DNA of 64,000 nucleotides from Synechococcus sp. MW101C3 (GTDB lineage: Bacteria > Cyanobacteriota > Cyanobacteriia > PCC-6307 > Cyanobiaceae). The notes below the pieces were generated by a model that was not told where the DNA came from, ran no database searches, and was given only the letters and a program-made list of their open reading frames with translations. Positions 2,625 to 46,893 of the stretch are shown here, one piece after another (positions within the stretch are counted from its first letter, which is position 1; the number at the start of each line of letters is the position of its first letter). A program made the translations under genes and the position numbers. Location of the stretch: the NCBI RefSeq assembly GCF_002252635.1, contig NZ_NQKX01000001.1, positions 1 through 64,000 of the forward strand. The letters run 5' to 3'.

Positions 2625-2805
2625 CCGCAGACTCTGCCGTAAGGGCAAGAGTAGCGGTTAGTTCAGCTCTTGCTGGCTGCACTGGCGCAGGTCTCTCCAC
2701 CCAGCCAGAACGTTTGGACAGGATATGCAGACAGCATTTACCATTTTCTTCGTTGACGTTGCCGATACCATTGGCTGCATGGATCCATTCTTTATCACGG
2801 AGCCA

Positions 2806-3912
2806 ATGTTCCCGCAGGCCTGCAGGTTGCGCAGTTTTGGCGCCGTGCTGGCTGCGGCGTGTTTGGTGAGCCTTGCTATCCCCTCTGCTCAGGCACAGCT
2901 CCCGCTCGGCCAAGTGGAGTCCAGGGGTTCAAAGGTGCAGGGTTCCTTGTTGCAGGAAGATGTCTACATCCTGGGGCCGGGTGATGGCCTGCAGCTTAGG
3001 TTTCTTGCCGCCAAGGATCTTTCTGGTTCCCTTGACATCCTCAGCGACGGTACCGCTGCTCTCCCCCTGCTTGGAAACGTGGTGCTTTCGGGACTGACCC
3101 TTTCCCAGGCTTCAGAGTGGCTCCAGCTTCTCTACAGAGGGCAGTTGTTGAGGCCTGACCTCCAGCTCAGTCTGGTGCGCCCACGACCGCTGAGGGTCGC
3201 GGTAGTCGGTGAGGTGGAACGGCCGGGTCTTTACACCCTCACAACATCGGAAACATCGGCAACCCAGGCTGGGGTTGCGATCTCAGGTGTGTCCACACTC
3301 GTGGATGCGGTTCAGAAAGCCGGTGGAGTTACCGGATTGGCCAACCTTCGCCAAGTGACCCTCCAGCGCCGCATTCCCGGCACACCACACCGATTCAAAC
3401 GGGCCAGGGTTGATCTCCTTGCGCTGGTTCAAGACGGCGATCAGCTCCAGAATCCCGTCCTGTTTGACGGTGACACCATCCGGGTAGAGCGCGCCGTGGA
3501 GGAAGTGGCTGAGCTCACAGAGCTGGCTGCCACTACCCTCTCTCCTCGGACCATCACGGTGAATGTGATTGGGGAGGTCAAGGCTCCTGGCCGCATTCAG
3601 GTCCCTGCCAGTACGCCGATGATGCAGGCAGTGCTCGCTGCCGGCGGCGTGGCTCCATGGCGTGCAAGAACTTCCAAACTTGATTTAGTACGGATCAACC
3701 GCAACGGCACCGCAACGCGCAGGAGCTACGCCTTCGATCTAAACCAAGGAGCATCCACGCTCAGAAACCCACCACTGCGGGAAGGTGACACTGTGATCGT
3801 TAACCGCAGCCGTTATGCCATTACTGCAGATGCAGTTGAAGCGGTGAGTCGTCCCTTGACCGGCTTGGTCAATGTGTTGGCGCTGATCCGCATTCTTGAC
3901 AATAACAATTAG
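2806..3912 (+). CDS. Polysaccharide export protein (Wza-like, SLBB domains)
   Basis: Outer-membrane auxiliary protein of polysaccharide export, about 368 residues. The ATG at 2806 was preferred because MFPQACRLRSFGAVLAAACL begins a good signal peptide ending at SAQA; an in-frame ATG at 2725 would add a non-signal extension. The polysaccharide-export domain starts at about residue 54 with YILGPGDGLQLRF. Two SLBB units are visible (VVGEVERPGLYTL near 137 and VIGEVKAPGRI near 253). There is no obvious lipobox Cys at the cleavage site, unlike E. coli Wza. Its partner is probably the Wzc-like kinase near 43 kb. It is the first + strand gene of the locus. Confidence 0.92.
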   Translation: MFPQACRLRSFGAVLAAACLVSLAIPSAQAQLPLGQVESRGSKVQGSLLQEDVYILGPGDGLQLRFLAAKDLSGSLDILSDGTAALPLLGNVVLSGLTLSQASEWLQLLYRGQLLRPDLQLSLVRPRPLRVAVVGEVERPGLYTLTTSETSATQAGVAISGVSTLVDAVQKAGGVTGLANLRQVTLQRRIPGTPHRFKRARVDLLALVQDGDQLQNPVLFDGDTIRVERAVEEVAELTELAATTLSPRTITVNVIGEVKAPGRIQVPASTPMMQAVLAAGGVAPWRARTSKLDLVRINRNGTATRRSYAFDLNQGASTLRNPPLREGDTVIVNRSRYAITADAVEAVSRPLTGLVNVLALIRILDNNN

Positions 3913-14941: not shown

Positions 14942-16099
14942 ATGCGGATCGCCGCTGTGCTTCAGGAGCTTGATGGGGGTGGCTCCGTGGCCAGCTGTTG
15001 CCTCAACCAGCTTGCCGTCCTCGCCCATTCTCACCAGTGTTTTCTGATCACTACGGCTGGTTCTGGTGAGGAGCTTGTCGCCATGCCTGCCCCTGTGCGG
15101 GTGCGGAGGCTATACGTGCCAAGGCTGGGCTTGTTGCACCGCTTTGCCCATGTTCCGCGCCAGATCCTGTTCATCCTTTTGGTGGGTGTGGCCCTCTGCC
15201 GCTGGAACAAGCGGGAGCGACCAGACTTGGTGCTGTTCCACAGCCATCCCCCCACAGCTGTGTTGGCGCCCATTCTTCACAAGGTGCTGGGCTGCCGGGT
15301 GGCGATGGTGATGCATGGTGACATCCGCGATCGTCCGGCTGGTACCTACGATCCGCGTCTAACGTGGTGGTATCGGGTCACCACACCCGTCGCCTACCGG
15401 AGCGCAGATGCCGTGTTGGCTCTTTCGCCCTACATGGCCCAGTGGGCCATCGCCGGAGGGGCGGATTCCGGCAACGTCTATCTCACTCCCAACGGAGTGG
15501 ATGCCGACGAGATCGGTGCCGATATGCCGCCCACCGCTCCGCTCGGGGAGGGTCTGCTGTACGTGGGGCGCCTCGAACACAACAAGGGGGTGGATCTGCT
15601 GATCGAGGCCTTTTGCCGCATCGCGCCTCAGTGGCCGGCCCTCCGCCTCACTTGCATCGGGAGTTCATCCCACGCGTTTCGCCTGGGGCTGGACCTGATC
15701 TTGGACACAGCACGCCTCTCCGACAGGGTTACCTTTCTCCCGCCCCTGTCACGCAAGCTACTTGGCCGTTTCTACCGAGAGAGTGTTCTGGTGGTGATCC
15801 CCTCCCGCAGCGAAACCCAGTCCACCGTGGCGATGGAAGCGATGGCGGCCGGCCGTGCCGTTCTCGCCTCGAACACTGGTGGTAACCCGATGCTGGTGGA
15901 TGTACCCAGAACTGGTCTGCTGTTCACCAACGGTGACGCCGACGATCTCACCGAGCGGCTCGAGCAGTTGCTCCACAGTCCTGCAGAGCTTGCCGCCATG
16001 GGCCATGCGGGCTACCAACGACATCAGGCTCACTTTTCCCGGCAGAGAGCGGGCGAGAGGTTGCAGGTTGCCGTTGATCGCCTCACAGGACGCCGGTGA
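14942..16099 (+). CDS. GT4 family glycosyltransferase
   Basis: GT-B fold retaining transferase of about 385 residues. The N-terminal domain starts MRIAAVLQELDGGGSVASCC with a Gly-rich donor loop. The C-terminal domain has LLYVGRLEHNKGVDLLIEAF, and the EX7E-type nucleotide-sugar site is SRSETQSTVAMEAMAAGRAV, with the two acidic residues in the expected spacing. Its stop overlaps the following gene by four bases (GTGA), so the two are probably co-translated. Confidence 0.9.
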   Translation: MRIAAVLQELDGGGSVASCCLNQLAVLAHSHQCFLITTAGSGEELVAMPAPVRVRRLYVPRLGLLHRFAHVPRQILFILLVGVALCRWNKRERPDLVLFHSHPPTAVLAPILHKVLGCRVAMVMHGDIRDRPAGTYDPRLTWWYRVTTPVAYRSADAVLALSPYMAQWAIAGGADSGNVYLTPNGVDADEIGADMPPTAPLGEGLLYVGRLEHNKGVDLLIEAFCRIAPQWPALRLTCIGSSSHAFRLGLDLILDTARLSDRVTFLPPLSRKLLGRFYRESVLVVIPSRSETQSTVAMEAMAAGRAVLASNTGGNPMLVDVPRTGLLFTNGDADDLTERLEQLLHSPAELAAMGHAGYQRHQAHFSRQRAGERLQVAVDRLTGRR

Positions 16100-17571
16100 C
16101 GCCCCTCAGCCTTGAGTTGGTCATCGACCTTGCCCAGCCCGCTCAGCAGACAATCGCCACACGGCTGCGAGAGGGTCTCAGGCCTGGTGAGGAACTGCGG
16201 GTTGTGCCTAGGCAGCATTGGCTTCCAGGCCTCTGTCGCAACCCTGGGGCAAGCGGCAGCGCTGCGGTGTGCGTGCTTCTGGCTGCGGCGGGGTGGCAGC
16301 CGGGGCAGGGGGGAGCCGCCGACCTCCCAGCCGCCGTGCTCATGCTTACTGAGCATGTGGACGGCCGTGCTCTCGAGATCGGCCCGGCCACAGGGCTCAT
16401 GGCTTCAGCGCGGGGTGAGCCGGCCTCGCATTTTCTCATTGGCAGACCCTTCGTAAGCCAGAGGTCCGCGGAACTGCTCGGCCTGGTGCAGCTGACGGTG
16501 CCCAGCCTGGCCCGCTGGAGGTTCCACCAGCAGCGCTGCCTCCGGGGCGCTGCCGACTATCTGCTCTGGTGGTTGCGTCTCTGCGATCAGCGGCAGGCTC
16601 TGCTGACGATCACGCCGTTGTCACACAGGCTGCCCCTGCAACCGGCCCTACCCATGAGCCGCCGTCTTCAGCTGGGGGCCAGTGGCCGCTGGGCCCTTGC
16701 CGGCACCCGGCGCCGCATCGGGCAGCGGTTCGCGGGTGAGGCCCAACCCTGGCGGGTCGGCATCGGCCAGCTTGAGCCAGGGGGCCAGCGACTGCAAGTT
16801 CTGCACGAGCTACCACCGCGCGGCACCGATTGGTTCGCCGATCCCTTCCTGGTGCGAGATGGGCCGAACACGTGGCTTTTTTGCGAGCGATGGGATGGGG
16901 CGGAAGGCCGTGGGGTGATCGATCTGTTCTGCGTGCGCTCGTGCGGCCTAGAAGCCTGCGGCACCGTGATTGCAGAGCCTTTCCATCTCTCCTTCCCCCG
17001 TGTGGTTCAGCACTCCGGTGCCTGGTTCGCCACAGTGGAAAGTGGCAGCAACAGCGATGTGCGCCTCTACCGAGCTCTCGCCTTCCCCCATCGCTGGAGG
17101 CTGGAGAGGCAGCTGCTCAGTGGCGAGGCCTGGATCGACCCGATCCTGATCCCTTCCTCGGCGGGCTGGTGGCTGCTGGTCAACACCCATCACTGTCCGG
17201 CTCTGCCAGCTTCTTCGGCGGCCGAGTTGCACCTGTTCCATAGCCCTGATTTGCTGGAGGGGCAATTCACCCCCCACCCGGGTTCACCACTGCGTGTGGA
17301 CAGCACTTGCGGTCGCAACGGAGGCCTGCTGCATCTGGAGGGTGAGCTTTTGCGGGTAGGCCAAGGCACCGGCATCGACAATGCCTATGGCCAAGGAATC
17401 CAGCTGTACCGGATCGACCAGATGGACAAAGGGCACTACAGAGAAACTACCCACGAGCTGGCATGGTTACGGAAGCTGCCACGAGACCTGAGAGCAAGCC
17501 ATCTTCACACTCTGAACAACGCTGGCCCTTGGATGGCGGTAGACTATCGCACACATCGGCGAGGTTTTTGA
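16096..17571 (+). CDS. Large protein with GINT1-N-like beta-propeller domain
   Basis: About 491 residues. The start is GTG 16096, overlapping the previous stop. Residues 1 to about 210 are not recognised; they contain LMLTEHVDGRALEIGP, and in related proteins this position often holds a formyltransferase-like or sugar-enzyme domain. Residues about 218-490 show the spaced pattern of the N-terminal propeller domain of glucosamine inositolphosphorylceramide transferase 1: WRVGIGQL, DWFADPFLV, LFCERWDG, EPFHLSFPRVV, WIDPILI, GRNGGLL. The role is probably in glycan modification, inferred from the propeller and the flanking transferases. The catalytic function is unknown. Confidence 0.6.
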   Translation: MTPLSLELVIDLAQPAQQTIATRLREGLRPGEELRVVPRQHWLPGLCRNPGASGSAAVCVLLAAAGWQPGQGGAADLPAAVLMLTEHVDGRALEIGPATGLMASARGEPASHFLIGRPFVSQRSAELLGLVQLTVPSLARWRFHQQRCLRGAADYLLWWLRLCDQRQALLTITPLSHRLPLQPALPMSRRLQLGASGRWALAGTRRRIGQRFAGEAQPWRVGIGQLEPGGQRLQVLHELPPRGTDWFADPFLVRDGPNTWLFCERWDGAEGRGVIDLFCVRSCGLEACGTVIAEPFHLSFPRVVQHSGAWFATVESGSNSDVRLYRALAFPHRWRLERQLLSGEAWIDPILIPSSAGWWLLVNTHHCPALPASSAAELHLFHSPDLLEGQFTPHPGSPLRVDSTCGRNGGLLHLEGELLRVGQGTGIDNAYGQGIQLYRIDQMDKGHYRETTHELAWLRKLPRDLRASHLHTLNNAGPWMAVDYRTHRRGF

Positions 17572-36784: not shown

Positions 36785-37860
36785 GGGAAACTCTGGAAAA
36801 CCCAGTCCACCTGCGGGACAATGGCCCCGTGATGGCCGGTCAGGGCTGTGTTGATGGGCGGCAAGCAACTCGGCTTCTCTGACTACGAGCAAACGACTGC
36901 CAAGCAACAGACCAAGCGCGAGAAGTTCCTGGCGGAGATGGAGGCGGTGGTGCCCTGGCAGGTACTGATCGCGCTGATTGAGCCCCACTACCCCAAAACC
37001 AGCAAGAAGGGTGGGAGGCCTCCTTATCCCCTGTCCACGTAGCCCCTGGCTTCCGCGAAGCGGTTGCTGAGGATTAACCTGTTGCAGCAGTGGTACGCAC
37101 TCAGTGATCCGGCGATGGAAGAGGCCCTGATTGAGGTGACCATCATGCGCCGGTTTACGGCAATCGATCTGATCAGTGATCGGATCCCTGATGAGACCAC
37201 GATTCTCACCTTTCGCCACCTGCTGGAGAAGCATGGCCTGGGCGAGCAGATCTTTGCGACCGTCAATGCTCACCTGAGCGCACGGGGCATGACGATGCGC
37301 CAGGGCACGATCGTGGATGCCACCTTGATTGCAGCGCCCAGCTCCACCAAGAACAGCGAGGGGAAGCGGGATCTTGAGAGGCACCAGACCAAGAAGGGCA
37401 ACCAGTGATACTACGGAATGAAAGTCCATATCGGCGTCGCCCAGGATTCCGGGCTGATCCACTCCGTCGTCACCACGGCCGCCAACGTGAACGATCTCAC
37501 CCCAGCTGCAGAGCTGCTGCAGGGCGGTGAGGAGGTGGTCTAAGCCGAGGCCGGTTACCAGGGCATCGCCAAACGGTCCGAAATGACGAGCATGACAGCG
37601 GAGTTCCGGGTGGCAATGCGGCCGGGACAACGCCGAGCTCTGCCCACCACCCCAGATGGAAGGCTGCAGGATCTGATCGAGACCGCTAAAGCGCACGTCC
37701 GCGCCAAAGGTGAGCATCCGTTCCGGGTCATCAGGCAGCAGTTCGGAGTTCAAAAGACCCAGCTGCGCGGGATGGCCAAGAATCGTTGCAACGTCAACGT
37801 GATCGCAGCGCTCACAAATCTGTTCTTGGCGTGGCGACAGCTGCTTGAGGCGTCATGAAC
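36785..37860 (+). mobile_element. IS5-like insertion sequence, copy 2, transposase with three stops
   Basis: One continuous frame from about 36848 to 37858 encodes an IS5-family transposase: GGKQLGFSDYEQTTA, PWQVLIALIEPHYPKTSKKG, RFTAIDLISDRIPDETTILT, GTIVDATLIAAPSSTKN, YYGMKVHIGVAQDSGLIHSV and RCNVNVIAALTNLFLAWRQL. It is interrupted by TAG 37040 inside an extra segment of about 24 nt, TGA 37406 where Trp is expected, and TAA 37541 where Tyr is expected. The acidic sites VDATL and a YAD-like site (now *AEAGY) correspond to DDE positions. It is inactive as written and a diverged sister of the 22.3 kb copy. Confidence 0.87.
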
Positions 37861-38609: not shown

Positions 38610-39224
38610 CGGCGGATTACGGGTGGGATCACGGTGTTCCCCATACCCACGCCTACCTGACGGGACCGTTGCTGCACTTGCTTGATCAGGGCTCAAGCCC
38701 TGGCGACCAGAGTCTCGATGTGGGCTGTGGCAACGGTGCTCTTTGTGGGTTGCTCAACCGCCGGGTTTTCAGGTTGTTGGTGTTGACCCAAGTGCCAGCG
38801 GCATCGCAGCGGCGCGGCAATCCTTTCCCACGATTCCCTTTCATCAGGCGGCAGCAACCCCCGAGGAGATTGGGTGTTGGCTTTACCGCCTTTCGATGTG
38901 GTCATCAGCACGGAAGTTGTGGAGCATTGCTACGCTCCACGATGTTGGGCAGCCGCCACGTATTCCTGCTTGAAGCCGGGTGGCCAGCTGATCTGTTCCA
39001 CGCTATATCATGGCTATTTCAAGAATCTTGCCCTCGCCCTCAGCGGCAGGTTGGATGCGCATTTCACCGCCCTCTGGGAGGGCGGGCACATCAAATCCTG
39101 GAGCCGAGATACGCTCTCTCAGTTACTCATTACTGCCGGTCTTACGGATCTACGATTCATTGGTGCGGGCCGCTTGCCGTGGCTGTGGATGTCGATGCTC
39201 GTCACAGCTCGTAGATCCTGGTAA
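38610..39224 (+). pseudogene. Class I SAM methyltransferase pseudogene
   Basis: Three frames read in succession make a full methyltransferase. ADYGWDHGVPHTHAYL and GDQSLDVGCGNGALCG (motif I) come first. After a shift near 38750 comes GFQVVGVDPSASGIAAARQS. After a second shift near 38870 comes LPPFDVVISTEVVEHCYAPR, LKPGGQLICSTLYHGYFKNL and HIKSWSRDTLSQLLITAGLT, ending at 39224. Two single-base frameshifts disrupt it. A single-frame open reading across part of this region is a shadow of these shifts. Confidence 0.75.
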
Positions 39225-39930: not shown

Positions 39931-39951
39931 CAAGCCGGACGGCATTTCTTG

Positions 39952-41361
39952 ATGGATCGCCAGAGTGGGTCGATCCCTGGTGTGCACGCCCTGGCCCACC
40001 TGCGCCAGCGGGCACGATGGCGGCGCAACCGCAGCCGAGCGGCGCGGGTGACGGTCGTCAATCAGTTTTTCCCGCCCGATTACGCCGCCACCGGCCAGCT
40101 GTTGGCAGACCTAACCGGCCGCCTGTCGGCGTCCGGTTTGCAGATCCAGATCCTCACAGGGATGCCGGCGTATGCCGGGCCGGCCACCGAAGCCGAGCGG
40201 ATCGAGTTCGAACCCAACCGCTGCATCCGTCGCACGCGTGTGTCTCGCTTCTGGCCACGGCGCATCCGCGGCCGGGCTGTGAACAGTGTGATCTTCTGCA
40301 TGCGCAGTGGGCTGCGGCTCTTGCGTTACGTGCGCCGCGGCGATCTGATCGTGTACACAAGCGAACCGCCCTACCTGCCGATTGTGGGCTGGCTGGTGCA
40401 CCAGGTCACCCGCACCCCCTACCTGCTGATCGTCTACGACCTCTATCCCGATGTGCTTGAGGAGTTGCGTGTGCTCCCTGCGAGCCATTGGCTCTGCCGG
40501 CTCTGGCGCGGGCTTCATCGGCCGGCCCTCACTGGCGCCGCGGAAGTGGTGGTGCTGAGTGAGCTGATGGCCGAGCGTGTGCTGGCGCAGGCTCCCGGCA
40601 TCGCCGAGAGGCTGCACGTGATCCCCAGCTGGGCTGATCCTGAGCTGATCCGGCCCTTGCCGAAAGATGCCAACTGGTTTGTGCAGAGGTATCGGCTGGA
40701 GGATTGCTTCACCGTGCTCTACTCCGGTAATCAGGGCAGATGCCATGATCTGGTCACTCTGCTTGGCGCTGCCCTGATCCTTAGAGGCAATCAGGCCGTG
40801 CGTTTCCTGATCGTGGGCGATGGGCCGCAGCACCGCCGTCTCCTGCAGCTTGCTCACGAGTGGGACCTTGGCAACGTGTGTTTTCTGCCGTATCAGGATC
40901 TTGAGGCCCTGCCCCAATCGTTGGCGGCGGCGGATCTGGCGGTGGTGAGTGTTTCGATCGAGGCGGTGGGCGTGGTGGCTCCCTGCAAGCTGTATGGCCA
41001 CCTGGCCGCTGCCACTCCGATCGCCGCCATCACTCCCTCAGGTTCAGAGCTGCGGCGGCTGGTGGAGAGCAGCGGCTGCGGTCGCTGGTTCGCCAATGGC
41101 GATGCTGTCTCCCTGGCGGCGTGGATCCAGGACCTGGTGGTTGATCCAGATGCTGCCTTGGCTCACGGTGCTGCCGGCCTGGAGCTCCTGCGCCGGACCG
41201 CTACCCCGGAGCTGGTGAGCGAGCGCTATCGGCAGCTGATCTGCCGTCACTTACCGAATGGACGTGCGGTGGCCACCCTCTCGAGTCGAATGGATGTTGA
41301 GGCCACTAAGCCGCAGGCCATCAACCCCAAAGCGGCGAATGCACTTCAGGATGTTTGCTAA
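39952..41361 (+). CDS. GT4 glycosyltransferase (WbuB/WcaI-like)
   Basis: About 469 residues. ATG 39952 follows a TTG at 39949. After a basic N-terminal extension, VTVVNQFFPPDYAATGQLLA and LQIQILTGMPAY are typical of the WbuB/WcaI subgroup of GT4 enzymes. Later elements are TPYLLIVYDLYPDVLEEL, FTVLYSGNQGRCHDLVTLLG, VRFLIVGDGPQHRRLLQLA and VVSVSIEAVGVVAPCKLYGH. Members transfer fucosamine-like or other sugars during capsule assembly. The gene is intact although its whole upstream neighbourhood is decayed. Confidence 0.88.
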   Translation: MDRQSGSIPGVHALAHLRQRARWRRNRSRAARVTVVNQFFPPDYAATGQLLADLTGRLSASGLQIQILTGMPAYAGPATEAERIEFEPNRCIRRTRVSRFWPRRIRGRAVNSVIFCMRSGLRLLRYVRRGDLIVYTSEPPYLPIVGWLVHQVTRTPYLLIVYDLYPDVLEELRVLPASHWLCRLWRGLHRPALTGAAEVVVLSELMAERVLAQAPGIAERLHVIPSWADPELIRPLPKDANWFVQRYRLEDCFTVLYSGNQGRCHDLVTLLGAALILRGNQAVRFLIVGDGPQHRRLLQLAHEWDLGNVCFLPYQDLEALPQSLAAADLAVVSVSIEAVGVVAPCKLYGHLAAATPIAAITPSGSELRRLVESSGCGRWFANGDAVSLAAWIQDLVVDPDAALAHGAAGLELLRRTATPELVSERYRQLICRHLPNGRAVATLSSRMDVEATKPQAINPKAANALQDVC

Positions 41362-41444: not shown

Positions 41445-42086
41445 ATGAAAGTGAAGCCGCATGCAACGGATCCAGCAACCTTCAAGGGGGGCAAGCTGGC
41501 GATGTTTGGCCTTCAAGCGATTGCTGGCTTGGCGGTCATCTCGCTGAGCGATTGCCGGCCTGCAGAGGCCATCACGATCACGATCAATAACTTTACCGAT
41601 GTTTATTCAGTATCTAACTGGACATCCATCCCCGGCACGGGAAGCATCAGCACGGCTGGCGCCCCCAACTCGATCCAGCTCACAAGCGGAAACAATGGGA
41701 GTAATTCCCCGAGCCAGACGAGCTTTAGCATTGTGGCTCAGGGAGCTGGCAATATTACATTTCGGTGGAGTTTCGTCACCTCAGACCGGGATGGCCCCTT
41801 GTGGGATCCTTTCGGTTACACACTGAATTCTACGTTTGTCCAGCTCACTAACAATATAGGGCCCAATTCCCAGGGTGGAACTGTTTCCGTGCCTGTTGTG
41901 ATTGGTAGCGTCTTCCAGTTCACCCAGCGTACACAAGATAATCGGTTTGGTAGTGCCACTACTACGATCGATCAATTCACCGCACCCAAGTTAGTCCCAG
42001 CACCAACTCCAGGAGTGATGCTTTTCCCCTTGCTCACAGCGCTGGCAGTCTTACGCCGCCGCTACCGGCGACAATCTCTGAGGTGA
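41445..42086 (+). CDS. PEP-CTERM exosortase-target protein
   Basis: About 213 residues. ATG 41445 gives a usable signal peptide (LAMFGLQAIAGLAVISLS...PAEA); a start at 41355 would add 30 residues and overlap the GT4 gene. The mature region is Ser/Thr/Asn/Gly-rich and beta-like. The C-terminus has the sorting tripartite signal: a Pro-rich motif VPAPTPG, a hydrophobic segment VMLFPLLTALAVL and a basic tail RRRYRRQSLR. Such tails are cleaved by exosortases. Cyanoexosortase A is encoded about 3.4 kb away, so this is its likely substrate. The motif is a variant, APTPG rather than strict PEP. Confidence 0.82.
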   Translation: MKVKPHATDPATFKGGKLAMFGLQAIAGLAVISLSDCRPAEAITITINNFTDVYSVSNWTSIPGTGSISTAGAPNSIQLTSGNNGSNSPSQTSFSIVAQGAGNITFRWSFVTSDRDGPLWDPFGYTLNSTFVQLTNNIGPNSQGGTVSVPVVIGSVFQFTQRTQDNRFGSATTTIDQFTAPKLVPAPTPGVMLFPLLTALAVLRRRYRRQSLR

Positions 42087-42196
42087 GGGAAGTTGGTTGT
42101 TTGGTTGTAGAAGCTAAATCGTGTAGGCGGCAAGAGAACTATCCAGGCAGCAATGGAACGGTGCAAGTGTGAAAGAATCCCGTAGTTCAACTCTCC

Positions 42197-44602
42197 TCAG
42201 CAGCCGTCGAGCCACTGCCGAACTCTGCGACCCCAGCGCTGGCGGTTGGCTGCGTTCGGCAGCAGGGAACGCAAGCCTCTCTGCTTTGCCGCAGCCGCCT
42301 CGCCATCGCGGTAATAGGCGTACGAGCTACTCGGATCGAGAGCCGCCTCTCCTGCAAGTGTTCTATAGCTGCCATAGCCATAGCCATAGCCGTAACCCCC
42401 TTCGCTGCCACTGTCCTCCACCCGGGAATTCGTGAGCACACCAAGCAGAGGCGCCCCGGCGGCCTCGATACGTTTAATCGCCTCGGCCGGCAGGGCCCGG
42501 TCAACCCGGTTGAGGCTCACGAGCAGCACGATGCCATCCAGGTGCTCGGCCACCAGCGCCGCATCCGCCAGCCCTAGGGCCGGGGGCGTGTCGTAGAGCA
42601 CCAAGTCATACCCGCCATGGGTGGCGATGTCCGACACCAGCTCACCCATCCGAGCCGAACTCAATAGCCGCGGTGGATCCGGCGGCCGCTGCCCTGCCGT
42701 GATCACATCCCAGTTCGGGTAGTCCGGCACAGTCTGCAGCACATCGCGCCATGCCCAGCCCTCCTCTGCGAGCAGATTGCTGAGGCCGGCGTGGTTGTCG
42801 AGGCCCAGGCGATGATGTATCTGCGGCTTGCGCAGGTCGGAATCCACCAGCAGCACGCGGCGGCCCAACTCGTGCATCGTCTTTGCAAGCAGCACGATCG
42901 CTAGGCTTTTCCCCTCTGAGGGCTGGGAACTGCTCAGCGCAAGGGATCGCAACGGCTTCTCCGTACTTAGAAATCGCAGGCTGGTATAGAGGTTCCGAAA
43001 GGCCTCTTGGTAATGGAAGCGCTGATAGCGCGCTACCCCACTCTCCTGGTTGTCAAGTTCCTTGAGCAGAAAGCGTTTTTCTGCTCTCACTCCCTCAAAA
43101 AAGGAGATGTAGGGGATATGGCCAAGCTGGGGTTTCTTCAGCTCGTCACGCACCTCTCCGGGGCTGTGGAACACATGATCGAGCCGGTCGCGCAGCAGCG
43201 CCACGCCAGCACCGGCCACCAACCCGAACAGCAAGCCCTGCAGCAGGCCCCGTCCCAGCTGCGGTTCCACGGGCGTCGAATTCACCACCGTGGGTGCGAT
43301 CACCTTCCAGGGAACATTGTTCTGTGCAATCTCCAGCCTGAATTGCTCCCGTGTGCTTTGGTAGCTGGCCAGGTTGGCTTCGGCCGCCTTGAGTTGCCGC
43401 TGCAAGTCTTCGTATTCCCGCAGCAGCCCCGGCTGGCGCTCAAAGCGGCCCTCCAGCTGCTCCACCTTGGCCTGGTTCATCGCCATCGCCCCATCCAGCT
43501 TCTGGACCGCCGCATCCACGGCTTCCATCTCCTTTCTCTCCAACTGCGGCCGCAGCTGGTTGCGCGCCGCCAGGAGGTTCTGCAGGAATGGGGAGGAAGG
43601 CTGGAAGGTGACGCGGGCTGCGGCGATCTGCTTCTCGACGTTGCTGAGCTCTTCCAGGATGGCCTGATCCGGAAGGTTGACCCGCACGTTGGTGCCCAGG
43701 CCACTGTCAACACTGCCTTCAAGTCCGCTGGCGGCGCTGCTGCGGCTGTCACTGCTGAAGTCGCGCAGGCTTAGGCGCCCCGCCGCCACGTCGTCGCGTA
43801 GGCGGAGCAGCTGCTCCCGCTCCGCCTGCTGGCTGGCCAGCCGGGAGCGCAGCATGCCCACCTGCTGGCGCACCGCCGTGGCCTCCTCCGCAGGAAGCAG
43901 GACCCGGTTGGAACGGCGGAAGGCCTCGACCTGGTTCTGCAGGGTACGGAAGCGCTGTTGCAAGGCCGGCGCCTGCTCATCAAGGAAGCGCACCCCCTCG
44001 CTCAGCTTCTCGCGTCGCTGCTGCAGAGACCACTGCAAGTAAGCCTTCTCCGTGAGTGAAAGCGCACGGCCCACCAGATCCGGGTCTTTGCCGCGGGCAT
44101 TCACTGCCAGCACCCCAGCTGCCAGCAACCCGGGTGCGTTGCCCCCGGCCGGCACCAGCGAGACCGATACCCCTGGCATGGCCTGGCCCGCATGGCTCTT
44201 CTGCAGTTGCTCGTACACCGGCCCCAGCACCGCCGGGCTTTCCAGCACCCGCATCAGGGTGGGCACATCAAGGCGGCTTTCATTGAGAGCCACCGAGGCG
44301 ATGTCGGAGCTACCGGCTGTGCTCCCGCTGCTGCCCGAGCGCGGCTGGTTGATCGGATCGCTGATCAGGAGGGTGAAACCGCCTTGGAACACCGGTGCGT
44401 TCATTCGTTGCCAGACCGTTCGCGCCCCAAAGGCCACCGCGACCAGCACCATCGTGATCAGAAAGGGCCGACGCCTACGCCGCAGCACCCGTAACAGGTT
44501 GCCGGGGCGGAAGCCGGACTCCTCTGTATCAAAGGCCTCTGGTAGCGGAAGGGCCACCATGCGAGCTGAGGGCAGGCCCTTGGGCGGGGAGCCGCTGCTC
44601 AT
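42197..44602 (-). CDS. Wzc-like polysaccharide co-polymerase/tyrosine autokinase
   Basis: About 801 residues. ATG 44602 is used because a longer start at 44707 would run into the divergent hpsJ-like gene. The N-terminal Wzz domain has a first membrane helix about 45-63 (RRRRRPFLITMVLVAVAFGA), a long coiled-coil region about 200-430 and a second helix near 475-490 (LLQGLLFGLVAGAGVALL). The kinase domain has Walker A SSQPSEGKSLAIVLL near 560, Walker A' LLVDSDLRKPQIHH and Walker B DLVLYDTPPALGLADA. The tail is Tyr-rich (GYGYGYGYGSYR, SSYAYYRDG), the usual autophosphorylation cluster. It controls chain length with the Wza-type partner at 2.8 kb. Confidence 0.93.
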   Translation of the reverse strand: MSSGSPPKGLPSARMVALPLPEAFDTEESGFRPGNLLRVLRRRRRPFLITMVLVAVAFGARTVWQRMNAPVFQGGFTLLISDPINQPRSGSSGSTAGSSDIASVALNESRLDVPTLMRVLESPAVLGPVYEQLQKSHAGQAMPGVSVSLVPAGGNAPGLLAAGVLAVNARGKDPDLVGRALSLTEKAYLQWSLQQRREKLSEGVRFLDEQAPALQQRFRTLQNQVEAFRRSNRVLLPAEEATAVRQQVGMLRSRLASQQAEREQLLRLRDDVAAGRLSLRDFSSDSRSSAASGLEGSVDSGLGTNVRVNLPDQAILEELSNVEKQIAAARVTFQPSSPFLQNLLAARNQLRPQLERKEMEAVDAAVQKLDGAMAMNQAKVEQLEGRFERQPGLLREYEDLQRQLKAAEANLASYQSTREQFRLEIAQNNVPWKVIAPTVVNSTPVEPQLGRGLLQGLLFGLVAGAGVALLRDRLDHVFHSPGEVRDELKKPQLGHIPYISFFEGVRAEKRFLLKELDNQESGVARYQRFHYQEAFRNLYTSLRFLSTEKPLRSLALSSSQPSEGKSLAIVLLAKTMHELGRRVLLVDSDLRKPQIHHRLGLDNHAGLSNLLAEEGWAWRDVLQTVPDYPNWDVITAGQRPPDPPRLLSSARMGELVSDIATHGGYDLVLYDTPPALGLADAALVAEHLDGIVLLVSLNRVDRALPAEAIKRIEAAGAPLLGVLTNSRVEDSGSEGGYGYGYGYGSYRTLAGEAALDPSSSYAYYRDGEAAAAKQRGLRSLLPNAANRQRWGRRVRQWLDGC

Positions 44603-44678
44603 GGCGAAATGTCGATGGGCTGATTGTATGGGTGATCGAACGGCGCCGCCCAACCACTTCCCGTAAGGTGATCGCGTG

Positions 44679-45476
44679 ATGGATTTCAGTGCCCGTCGGG
44701 CCGGCACACTGGCCCGCTTGAGTGCCTACACACTGCTGGTCACCTTTCTGATCACCTTGGTCGGTGGCTTGTTGCCCTTGCCGTTGGGCGATAGCCAGCG
44801 ATTGTTCTCGCTGCTAACCGAACTGATTGCCAACTCCACCGTGCCGGTGGTGGCTCTCTTCCTTCTTTTTTACGGGCTCGCAGGCGAGGGTCTGCCTGCC
44901 CATTGGGAGTGGAGGTTGCTATGCGCGGTGCGGCCGTTGTTGCAGTTGGCAGCGCTTCTCTACCTGCTCACTGCTCTGGCGCTGGTGGGGGTGTTCCTTC
45001 AAGTGGAGAGCACCGCCACCGCTCACCATGATGCCGAGCTTCGGAGCGGTCTGGCCGAGCTGCAGCGGTTGCGGCAGGCCTTGCAGGCTTCCTCGGATGC
45101 CACTGCCCTCCAGCAGCTCTTAGCCAGCCAGCCGGGTCTGCTCCAGGCCGTCGATGCCAGCCAACTTGGGGGGCGTGTGCAACCTTCTGCAGCCCCGGCC
45201 CCTTCCGTGGCTGAGCGCCGGCGCCAGGCTGCTCTCTTGCTCGATCGCGCCGAGGCCAGCCTGCGTTTACAGGTCACCCGCCGCCGTGCTGATGCAAGCG
45301 GCAACCTGACCCGGCAGGTGTTGCGGTTGGGGCTAAGCGCCCTGGTTTACGCGCTCTTTCATTTGGTCTCCTCGCTGCTTTGGCCTCGCTCCCTGCTCCA
45401 CACCCGCGAGAGCATCCTCGAGGCCCGTGCTGCCCGCCTCGCTATGGAGGAAGAGCAGCACGCCGAGCAGCTGTGA
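44679..45476 (+). CDS. HpsJ-like protein of the cyanoexosortase module
   Basis: About 265 residues. ATG 44679, with AAGGTG upstream, is preferred over GTG 44676. Four membrane helices are visible: YTLLVTFLITLVGGLLPLPL, VPVVALFLLFYGLA, LLQLAALLYLLTALALVGVF and a last one near residue 225 (LRLGLSALVYALFHLVSSLL). Between the third and the last lies a soluble helical loop of about 100 residues. This layout matches the HpsJ-like proteins found with cyanobacterial hormogonium-polysaccharide and exosortase loci. The stop overlaps the exosortase start (GTGA). The function is unknown; it may help polysaccharide secretion. Confidence 0.72.
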   Translation: MDFSARRAGTLARLSAYTLLVTFLITLVGGLLPLPLGDSQRLFSLLTELIANSTVPVVALFLLFYGLAGEGLPAHWEWRLLCAVRPLLQLAALLYLLTALALVGVFLQVESTATAHHDAELRSGLAELQRLRQALQASSDATALQQLLASQPGLLQAVDASQLGGRVQPSAAPAPSVAERRRQAALLLDRAEASLRLQVTRRRADASGNLTRQVLRLGLSALVYALFHLVSSLLWPRSLLHTRESILEARAARLAMEEEQHAEQL

Positions 45477-46375
45477 CGGCCGTGGAGCCGGTGGATCCAT
45501 GGCCTCGGTGGGAACGGTACTGCCGGCTTGCTCTCCTGGCCGGCTTGGCCTCCAGCCAGCTCACCCTCGCCGCCCGGGGGGGGGTGGGCGATTTCACGAT
45601 TATGGCCGCACTTACCTGGCTGGCTGGCGCCATTCTGCTGTTGGAGCTCGAGCAGGGGGGGGGAGTGTGTGCCTTCGGGGCCATTCCGACCGGCCGGTGG
45701 TGCTGCGGTGTGCTGGCCCTGCTCTGGTGTCTGTTGGTCCTCAGCTTCGGCGGCCGCCTTTACGACCCGCTGTTCTGGCTGCTACCTCTGATGGCACTGC
45801 CTGGTCTTGCCCTGCTGGCCGGTATCGGCTGGCGGGCAACGCTGCTGCACCAGCTTGTAGTGCTCGGCCTGCTGCTGCCCTCCCAGGGGCTCTTCAATGT
45901 GGCCATCCCCGTAGCCCCGCTGGCACACGTCACCGCCCGAGTGACCGCCCAGTTGCTCTGGCTGTTCGGCCAGTCCGCGTATGCCCAGGGGGATCGCATT
46001 GTTACCACCACGCAGACGCTGCTGGTGGATGGCCACTGCACTGGCCGCAGCATCCTCGGCTTCAGCCTCGCCACCTTGGTGGTGCTTCTGATCCTGCTGC
46101 CCCTGCCCCGCCGCGGCCGCTTCGCCACCATCGCTGCATTGGCAGTAGCCACCTTCTCTGCAGTATTCCTGCTCAACGGAGTGCGCATTGCCCTGCTTGC
46201 CTTCACAATCCGGGATCCCGGACCCGGGCCATTGGCAGCATTGCGCGGTTTCGAGTTCTGGCATTCCGGCCTCGGCTCCCAGCTGTTTACCCTGGCTGCT
46301 AGCGCCCTGGTCTGTGGCACCTATGTGATGCTGCTCGAATGGCGGCTGCGCCGGCACGGACCCCGCGCAGGATGA
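45473..46375 (+). CDS. crtA: Cyanoexosortase A
   Basis: About 300 residues with roughly eight membrane helices. The three exosortase active-site residues are visible: Cys189 in LLVDGHCTGRSILGF, Arg238 in LLNGVRIALLAF and His264 in FEFWHSGLGSQLF. The enzyme is a membrane transpeptidase-like protease that cleaves PEP-CTERM tails after export. GTG 45473 overlaps the upstream stop, and its own TGA overlaps the next ATG (ATGA), so the three genes form one coupled operon. The likely substrate is the PEP-CTERM protein at 41.4 kb. Confidence 0.92.
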   Translation: MTAVEPVDPWPRWERYCRLALLAGLASSQLTLAARGGVGDFTIMAALTWLAGAILLLELEQGGGVCAFGAIPTGRWCCGVLALLWCLLVLSFGGRLYDPLFWLLPLMALPGLALLAGIGWRATLLHQLVVLGLLLPSQGLFNVAIPVAPLAHVTARVTAQLLWLFGQSAYAQGDRIVTTTQTLLVDGHCTGRSILGFSLATLVVLLILLPLPRRGRFATIAALAVATFSAVFLLNGVRIALLAFTIRDPGPGPLAALRGFEFWHSGLGSQLFTLAASALVCGTYVMLLEWRLRRHGPRAG

Positions 46376-46893
46376 CCGCACTCCTTGATGGCTCCCAGCT
46401 TCGGCGGCGCCTGGTGCTCTGTTCCCTGGCCGGTTGGGCCTCCCTGCTGTCGCTGGAAACCCTGCTGCGCCAGCCGGGCTTTGCCCCCGCAGCCACCCTG
46501 CCACCCCAGCTGCGACTCGATGGGGTGCTGTACGCGCGTCGTCCGGCATCACCGCTGCAGCAAGACGCGCCCCAGCTGGATCTTCCTCCTGGTGTGGTGA
46601 GGCTGGCCGCCGCCCGCTACGGCGAGCACTCCGTGCTGCTACTGGGCCATACACGCAGCGGTGCAAGCGGCCAGATACCTGTGGAAGCCATCAATACTGC
46701 CCTCAGTCGTTCACCCAAGGGCGGCCGTTGTCTTGTGGTGGATGGGGCTGGCGATATACGGGCCGAGCTTGATAGCGCCGCCGATTGGTTGGCCTGGCGC
46801 CGTGCCCATCCTGCTACTTCTGCTCAGACGCTTGCATGGCTGGTGGGTCTGCAGCCTCGTCAGGCCAATCTCTGCCTGTGGATGGCCACGTGA
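46372..46893 (+). CDS. Cyanoexosortase A system-associated protein
   Basis: About 173 residues. ATG 46372 overlaps the exosortase stop. A hydrophobic segment (LVLCSLAGWASLLSLETLL) near residues 12-30 is followed by a periplasmic-like domain with LRLDGVLYARR, GRCLVVDGAGDI and LAWLVGLQPRQANLCLWM. Proteins of this size and position accompany cyanoexosortase A and are annotated as system-associated; their biochemical role is not known. It is the last intact gene of the polysaccharide locus. Confidence 0.8.
   Translation: MTALLDGSQLRRRLVLCSLAGWASLLSLETLLRQPGFAPAATLPPQLRLDGVLYARRPASPLQQDAPQLDLPPGVVRLAAARYGEHSVLLLGHTRSGASGQIPVEAINTALSRSPKGGRCLVVDGAGDIRAELDSAADWLAWRRAHPATSAQTLAWLVGLQPRQANLCLWMAT

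Follow-up and report, generated by a model that had tools for sequence, protein, structure and literature searches.

An exosortase gene in a polysaccharide locus, close to a gene for a secreted protein with a sorting-type C-terminus, raises the question of whether enzyme and protein are matched to each other and what such a pair may do for the polymer. We analysed this locus in a 64,000-nucleotide stretch of contig NZ_NQKX01000001.1 of Synechococcus sp. MW101C3 (hereafter the window), in the remainder of that genome and in related genomes.

Gene content and family assignment

The five genes listed in the first-pass annotation, for a candidate cargo protein, a Wzc-like kinase and the trio of HpsJ-like protein, exosortase and exosortase-associated protein, are all present (Table 1), and its description of the trio was accurate in detail: the genes overlap by four bases each (GTGA between the HpsJ-like and exosortase genes, ATGA between the exosortase and associated-protein genes), an arrangement mostly kept in orthologous loci, and Cys189, Arg238 and His264 of the exosortase are invariant in 15 orthologs. 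The cargo and Wzc-like genes are convergent, with a gap of 110 bp, and the trio is divergent from the Wzc-like gene. Since the oppositely oriented Wzc-like gene is located between the cargo gene and the trio, the cargo gene lies outside the transcript of the trio. The polysaccharide-locus setting was likewise recovered, with a Wza-like exporter, Wzc, an ABC transporter and many glycosyltransferases around the module.

Table 1. Positions in the window of the module and of two further genes of the polysaccharide locus
Feature	Position	Strand	Remarks
Wza-like polysaccharide export protein	2725-3912	+	Poly_export and SLBB; same locus
WcaI-like GT4 glycosyltransferase	39949-41361	+	Next gene upstream of cargo gene; synteny kept in G069 and G030
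Cargo protein, 213 aa	41445-42086	+	ATG at 41445, stop at 42086
Cargo, signal peptide	~41445-41570		
Cargo, predicted beta-sandwich body	~41571-41993		
Cargo, C-terminal sorting tail VPAPTPGVMLFPLLTALAVLRRRYRRQSLR	41994-42083	+	VPxP element 41994-42005, TM helix, RRRY 42054-42065; from alignments
Wzc-like polysaccharide co-polymerase/BY-kinase, 801 aa	42197-44602	-	Best start 44602, stop 42197
HpsJ-like membrane protein, 265 aa	44679-45476	+	Alternative GTG at 44676
T1 exosortase, 300 aa	45473-46375	+	GTG start; catalytic triad C189/R238/H264
Exosortase-associated protein, 173 aa	46372-46893	+	ATG start

Several other features of this locus were recorded. A transposase fragment (DUF772) lies at 37064-37408, a truncated methyltransferase at 38874-39224 (a longer relative is L066:1324-1989), and the protein encoded at 16096-17571 carries a GINT1_N (inositolphosphorylceramide transferase-like) domain in this bacterial polysaccharide locus. 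In G069 and G107 (loci L066 and L077) the orthologs of the cargo gene are found downstream of Wzc in the same direction; the strand of the cargo gene relative to Wzc is opposite in the window, which represents a local inversion.

The window exosortase scored 57.3 bits against PF09721 (cut-off 25.7), which places it in the exosortase/archaeosortase superfamily, and 30.9 bits against TIGR04178 (cut-off 23). We refer to this enzyme and its orthologs as T1, and to the commoner exosortase of the family, a grouping of the present analysis within the same superfamily, as T2. The nearest NCBIfam model for the window exosortase, and for all six T2 exosortases scanned, was that of cyanoexosortase A (TIGR03763, CrtA), which matched all 15 T1 members (best of 15 orthologs, E 2e-29). 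Because the window enzyme, with 60.2 bits, is below the curated cut-off of 150, cyanoexosortase A is its nearest label only. The best NCBIfam match of the HpsJ-like protein, HpsJ_like_A (NF050013), gave 65 bits, below the cut-off of 140, and HpsJ_fam (NF038305) gave 58.5 bits, just under the cut-off of 60; HpsJ_like_A matched 12/12 of the HpsJ-like orthologs scanned. The curated models thus do not bear out the earlier naming of the trio as cyanoexosortase A and HpsJ. The associated protein of the window matched neither TIGR04153 nor other library models; two of its 15 orthologs matched TIGR04153 weakly (best E 0.0043), and the gene position is conserved. It has a single N-terminal TM helix, an extracytoplasmic alpha/beta domain and a C-terminal WLxGLxPxxxNxCLW motif (AlphaFold pLDDT 84.5). 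No convincing fold match was found for it in the PDB (best Foldseek E 1.6, best Z 3.2), which is no proof that its fold is new, and a sequence search for a solved exosortase found none. The Wzc-like protein exceeded the cut-off of TIGR01007 (114.2 bits, cut-off 108), as a Wzc-type BY-kinase does, and contains an SQPSEGKS P-loop, the Walker-type motifs LLVDSD and DLVLYDTP, and a C-terminal Tyr cluster.

Distribution of T1 exosortases and C-terminal tails

In a survey set of 400 genomes of the family, PF09721 exosortases were found in 69. With the window exosortase as query, 16 T1 genomes were identified (42-100% identity); the other 53 of the 69 contained only remote relatives (at most 35% identity) or none, and some T1 genomes hold both types. 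T1 was monophyletic with a support of 1.0 in a midpoint-rooted FastTree tree of 54 sequences. Since 14 related loci also combine the trio with an adjacent Wzc, the arrangement is not due to chance; the gene for the associated protein is directly downstream of the exosortase in 15 orthologs. In the examined T1 loci Wzc adjoins the trio. It is divergent from the trio, with G032 and G074 as exceptions in which it sits on the opposite flank. We dropped the idea that the Wzc linkage is unique to T1, as the T2 genome G037 has Wzc ~2.4 kb from its exosortase, and also that T1 is a wider cyanobacterial type, as the best match outside the family, among 291 genomes of the class, was 36% identical. A single-protein scan of genome contigs gave a match only in Cyanobium sp. 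Prado107. T1 and T2 exosortases share genera g1, g31, g36 and g48, and weak HpsJ-like and associated-like genes flank T2 exosortases too.

Secreted proteins encoded in the T1 loci differ in other respects but have the common ending VP[SAGT]P-hydrophobic-RRRY, and a VPxP plus RRxR pattern is found in ~20 proteins that are dissimilar apart from it and almost confined to T1 genomes. A model built from the in-locus tails detected more RRRY proteins outside the loci in G211, G107, G123, G141, G083 and G051; in eight controls that lack T1 it gave no RRRY protein at E<0.05. With a refined model (E<=1e-5), VP[SAG]P-helix-RRRY proteins were found in 13/16 T1 genomes versus 1/384 others, a count that is partly circular since the tail models were trained on T1-locus tails. 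The Fisher value for this association, 8.8e-21, is an over-statement, and we do not read it as a true probability, given the relatedness of the genomes and the use of T1 tails in training. T2 genomes encode P[AG]PLPxLGxxxAFGxSRKLRKR tails, often on at least 10 cargo proteins per genome. In the four shared genera the tails follow the enzyme and not the genus, and G229 and G107 have both exosortases and both tail types. There are exceptions: G000 (the window genome) and G083 each encode a single T2-tail protein but no T2 exosortase; G181, which is 97% complete, encodes an RRRY-tail protein (L137, G181:C34:60266-60361) with no exosortase detected; and the T1 genomes G191, G032 and G074 gave no clear RRRY protein, the contig of G191 ending beside Wzc. 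A further protein of G083 (L134:10155-10880) has an intermediate tail, VPAPLPLLAPGLVLGTLLKARRRYRG, which falls between the types (15.6 and 13.9 bits).

The window exosortase is the sole exosortase of its 99.99%-complete genome; in the control genome of Synechococcus elongatus PF09721 matched nothing. Searching this genome with the model of the in-locus RRRY tails gave one strong match, the window cargo (E 3.9e-12; next E 0.2), and the T2 tail model gave one further protein (contig 3, ~166.2-166.9 kb, L131:973-1626; tail VPGPLPVLGAGAAFFWSRKLRKRLKHSK); both counts rest on model searches, and these would overlook a cargo whose tail is of another type again. Despite this T2-tail protein, the genome search gave no T2 exosortase. 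The genome search for other substrates proposed in the first-pass annotation has returned one T2-tail orphan only, and there was no second exosortase. Its suggestion of a single substrate stands for the RRRY tail type, with one such protein genome-wide and in the locus, and for that type only, because the T2-tail orphan is encoded elsewhere in the genome; relatives, moreover, often have two or more substrates. A transposase-like remnant is located upstream of the orphan on contig C3, where its tail is given as VPGPLPVLGAGAAFFWSRKLRKR.

The cargo protein and its natural tail swap

The cargo had been called a PEP-CTERM protein, an identity that the curated models do not support: neither PF07589 nor TIGR02595 matched it, PF07589 found nothing over its cut-off across the window genome, and none of the library sorting-domain models recognises the tail. 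The layout is nevertheless that of the PEP-CTERM/EpsH (exosortase A) system (PMC1569441), with a signal peptide, judged by eye, a Pro-containing motif, a TM helix and a basic cluster, and the link to exopolysaccharide genes is shared as well; unlike proteins of that system, the window cargo lacks the PEP motif. The sorting-type tail that had been noted is thus present, but APTPG, which had been proposed as its variant motif, was dropped, since the conserved tail element of the relatives is VPxP...RRRY. The refined RRRY model matched the cargo at 41979-42074 (E 3.4e-11), and in a leave-one-out comparison the tail scored 30.6 bits with the RRRY model versus -1.9 with the T2 model.

In the AlphaFold model of the cargo, strands span residues 44-183 and a helix residues 190-211. 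The body is a predicted beta-sandwich (pLDDT ~90 over residues 51-180) that resembles CBM51, CBM29, CBM16, MAM and gingipain-adhesin domains and the C-terminal domain of VesC, a secreted protease; the best structural match (Z 11.4) was not a CBM, and CBM51, CBM29 and CBM16 scored ~Z 8-9. Such a likeness of a predicted fold does not prove sugar binding, and the fold alone shows no function. By eye, the body domain was also recognised in two large autotransporter-like proteins (G197/L157 and G216/L158) and in a putative outer-membrane protein of G151, an occurrence that would fit a surface role of the cargo body.

Homologs of the cargo body were found in 20/400 genomes. We counted only homologs with a readable sorting tail in genomes with a classified exosortase; the copy of G267 was left out for its degenerate tail. 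The orthologs carry an RRRY tail in 4/4 T1 genomes (G000, G069, G107 and G051; G107 also has a T2 exosortase) and an SRKLRKR-type tail in 9/9 T2-only genomes (G204, G343, G142, G303, G037, G297, G139, G186 and G285), so that the tail of the cargo body matches the resident exosortase type in 13/13 genomes. G037, with the T2 tail, belongs to the window's own genus. In leave-one-out scoring the T1 cargo tails gave 27 to 46 bits with the RRRY model and at most 7 with the T2 model, and the T2 cargo tails gave 37 to 53 bits with the T2 model and at most 15 with the RRRY model. The natural tail swap follows the enzyme. No other evidence for matched specificity is as strong, since the body, not the tail, was the criterion by which these proteins had been selected. 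Together with the RRRY counts among T1 and other genomes, the swap means that the co-evolved specificity put forward in the first-pass annotation has passed a comparative test. The homolog of G051 (L148, G051:C1:503395-503878) is split by a frameshift, and its tail ends in RRRF.

Proposed function and alternative explanations

The comparison of 400 genomes suggests that the T1 enzyme reads a C-terminal tag different from that of the commoner T2 enzyme. Gene content, conservation, the sole exosortase, the co-segregation of tail and enzyme and the tail swap were all established by computation. We consider it likely that T1 is an exopolysaccharide-linked exosortase system, a divergent branch of cyanoexosortase A with its own address tag and a polysaccharide-associated cargo. 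An N-terminal signal peptide would direct the cargo to export by Sec, and the C-terminal helix would keep it in the inner membrane, the Arg cluster RRRY facing inwards. The exosortase (Cys189/Arg238/His264), presumably coupled in translation to its HpsJ-like and associated membrane partners, would recognise the VP[SAG]P-helix-RRRY tail, remove the helix and probably transfer the cargo onto another molecule. The beta-sandwich body may then act on the cell surface or within the polymer, the chain length and export of which would be run by the neighbouring Wzc and Wza. Cleavage, the acceptor molecule and the binding or anchoring of the cargo to the polymer are what we infer here; by analogy with known systems, the T1 exosortase most likely processes a polysaccharide-associated surface protein.

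One of these systems is that of cyanoexosortase A (TIGR03763, NF050013 and TIGR04153), the family that both the window enzyme and the HpsJ-like protein match best. Its model names already imply the same partnership of three, HpsJ, exosortase and associated protein. The window trio, however, is below the curated cut-offs or unmatched, and T1 differs in forming a separate clade with an RRRY tail and a Wzc gene alongside. In Nostoc, filaments require cyanoexosortase B (CrtB) to adhere to hormogonium polysaccharide, and the enzyme is also needed for biofilm formation and for normal abundance of the PEP-CTERM proteins of the exoproteome (PMC12188702). As in the window, the exosortase of Nostoc punctiforme is encoded with a downstream associated protein at a Wza/Wzc/Wzy-type locus; CrtB has several PEP-CTERM targets, whereas the window genome has one RRRY cargo, and the CrtB model was matched by 4/15 T1 orthologs (best E 2.8e-05) but not by the window exosortase. 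T2, with CrtA nearest and weak HpsJ-like and associated-like flanks, differs from T1 in its P[AG]PLPxLG...SRKLRKR tails, often on more than 10 cargo proteins per genome. What is new is an exosortase clade below the cut-offs that has a tail type of its own and is linked to Wzc, together with the evidence of the tail swap; within the collection of papers searched, none that mentions cyanoexosortases was found to deal with exosortases in small unicellular cyanobacteria of this family or with a tag split. Many exosortase genomes have at least 12 targets, and here one enzyme and one matching cargo share one locus. The same cargo body with two natural tails could serve as a minimal system for studying tag specificity, cargo fate and the link to the polymer, and it bears on the role of exosortases in small unicellular cyanobacteria and on how exosortases know their cargo.

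We regard as evenly balanced whether T1 and T2 are orthogonal exosortase/tag pairs that coexist in this family and have been exchanged within genera, with T1 reserved for Wzc-linked capsule or slime; a change of enzyme would then bring a change of tail in the cargo genes, tag and enzyme co-evolving as lock and key. It is unlikely, in our judgement, that the window encodes an ordinary cyanoexosortase A system in which the tails differ through drift along the species tree and the enzyme has no special tag preference. The common nearest model of T1 and T2, the similar genes flanking T2 enzymes and the T2-tail orphan of the window genome would agree with such a system; drift, however, does not sit well with tails that track the enzyme within four shared genera, with two genomes holding both enzymes and both tail types, or with orthologous cargo bodies that switch tails with the enzyme.

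That the cargo is not a substrate at all, its tail being a membrane anchor only and the trio serving polysaccharide assembly directly, seems highly improbable. The name of HpsJ refers to the biosynthesis of hormogonium polysaccharide (NF050014 description), the cargo gene is beyond Wzc and outside the trio's transcript, and the library sorting models do not see the tail, yet the VPxP plus RRxR ending recurs on proteins that otherwise differ, nearly only in T1 genomes, and exosortases are regarded as protein-sorting enzymes (PMC12188702). We give hardly any credence to the reading of the module as decaying and perhaps on its way out; the inverted cargo gene, the transposase fragment and the truncated methyltransferase would agree with it, but the module itself consists of five intact genes with full catalytic residues and conserved overlaps.
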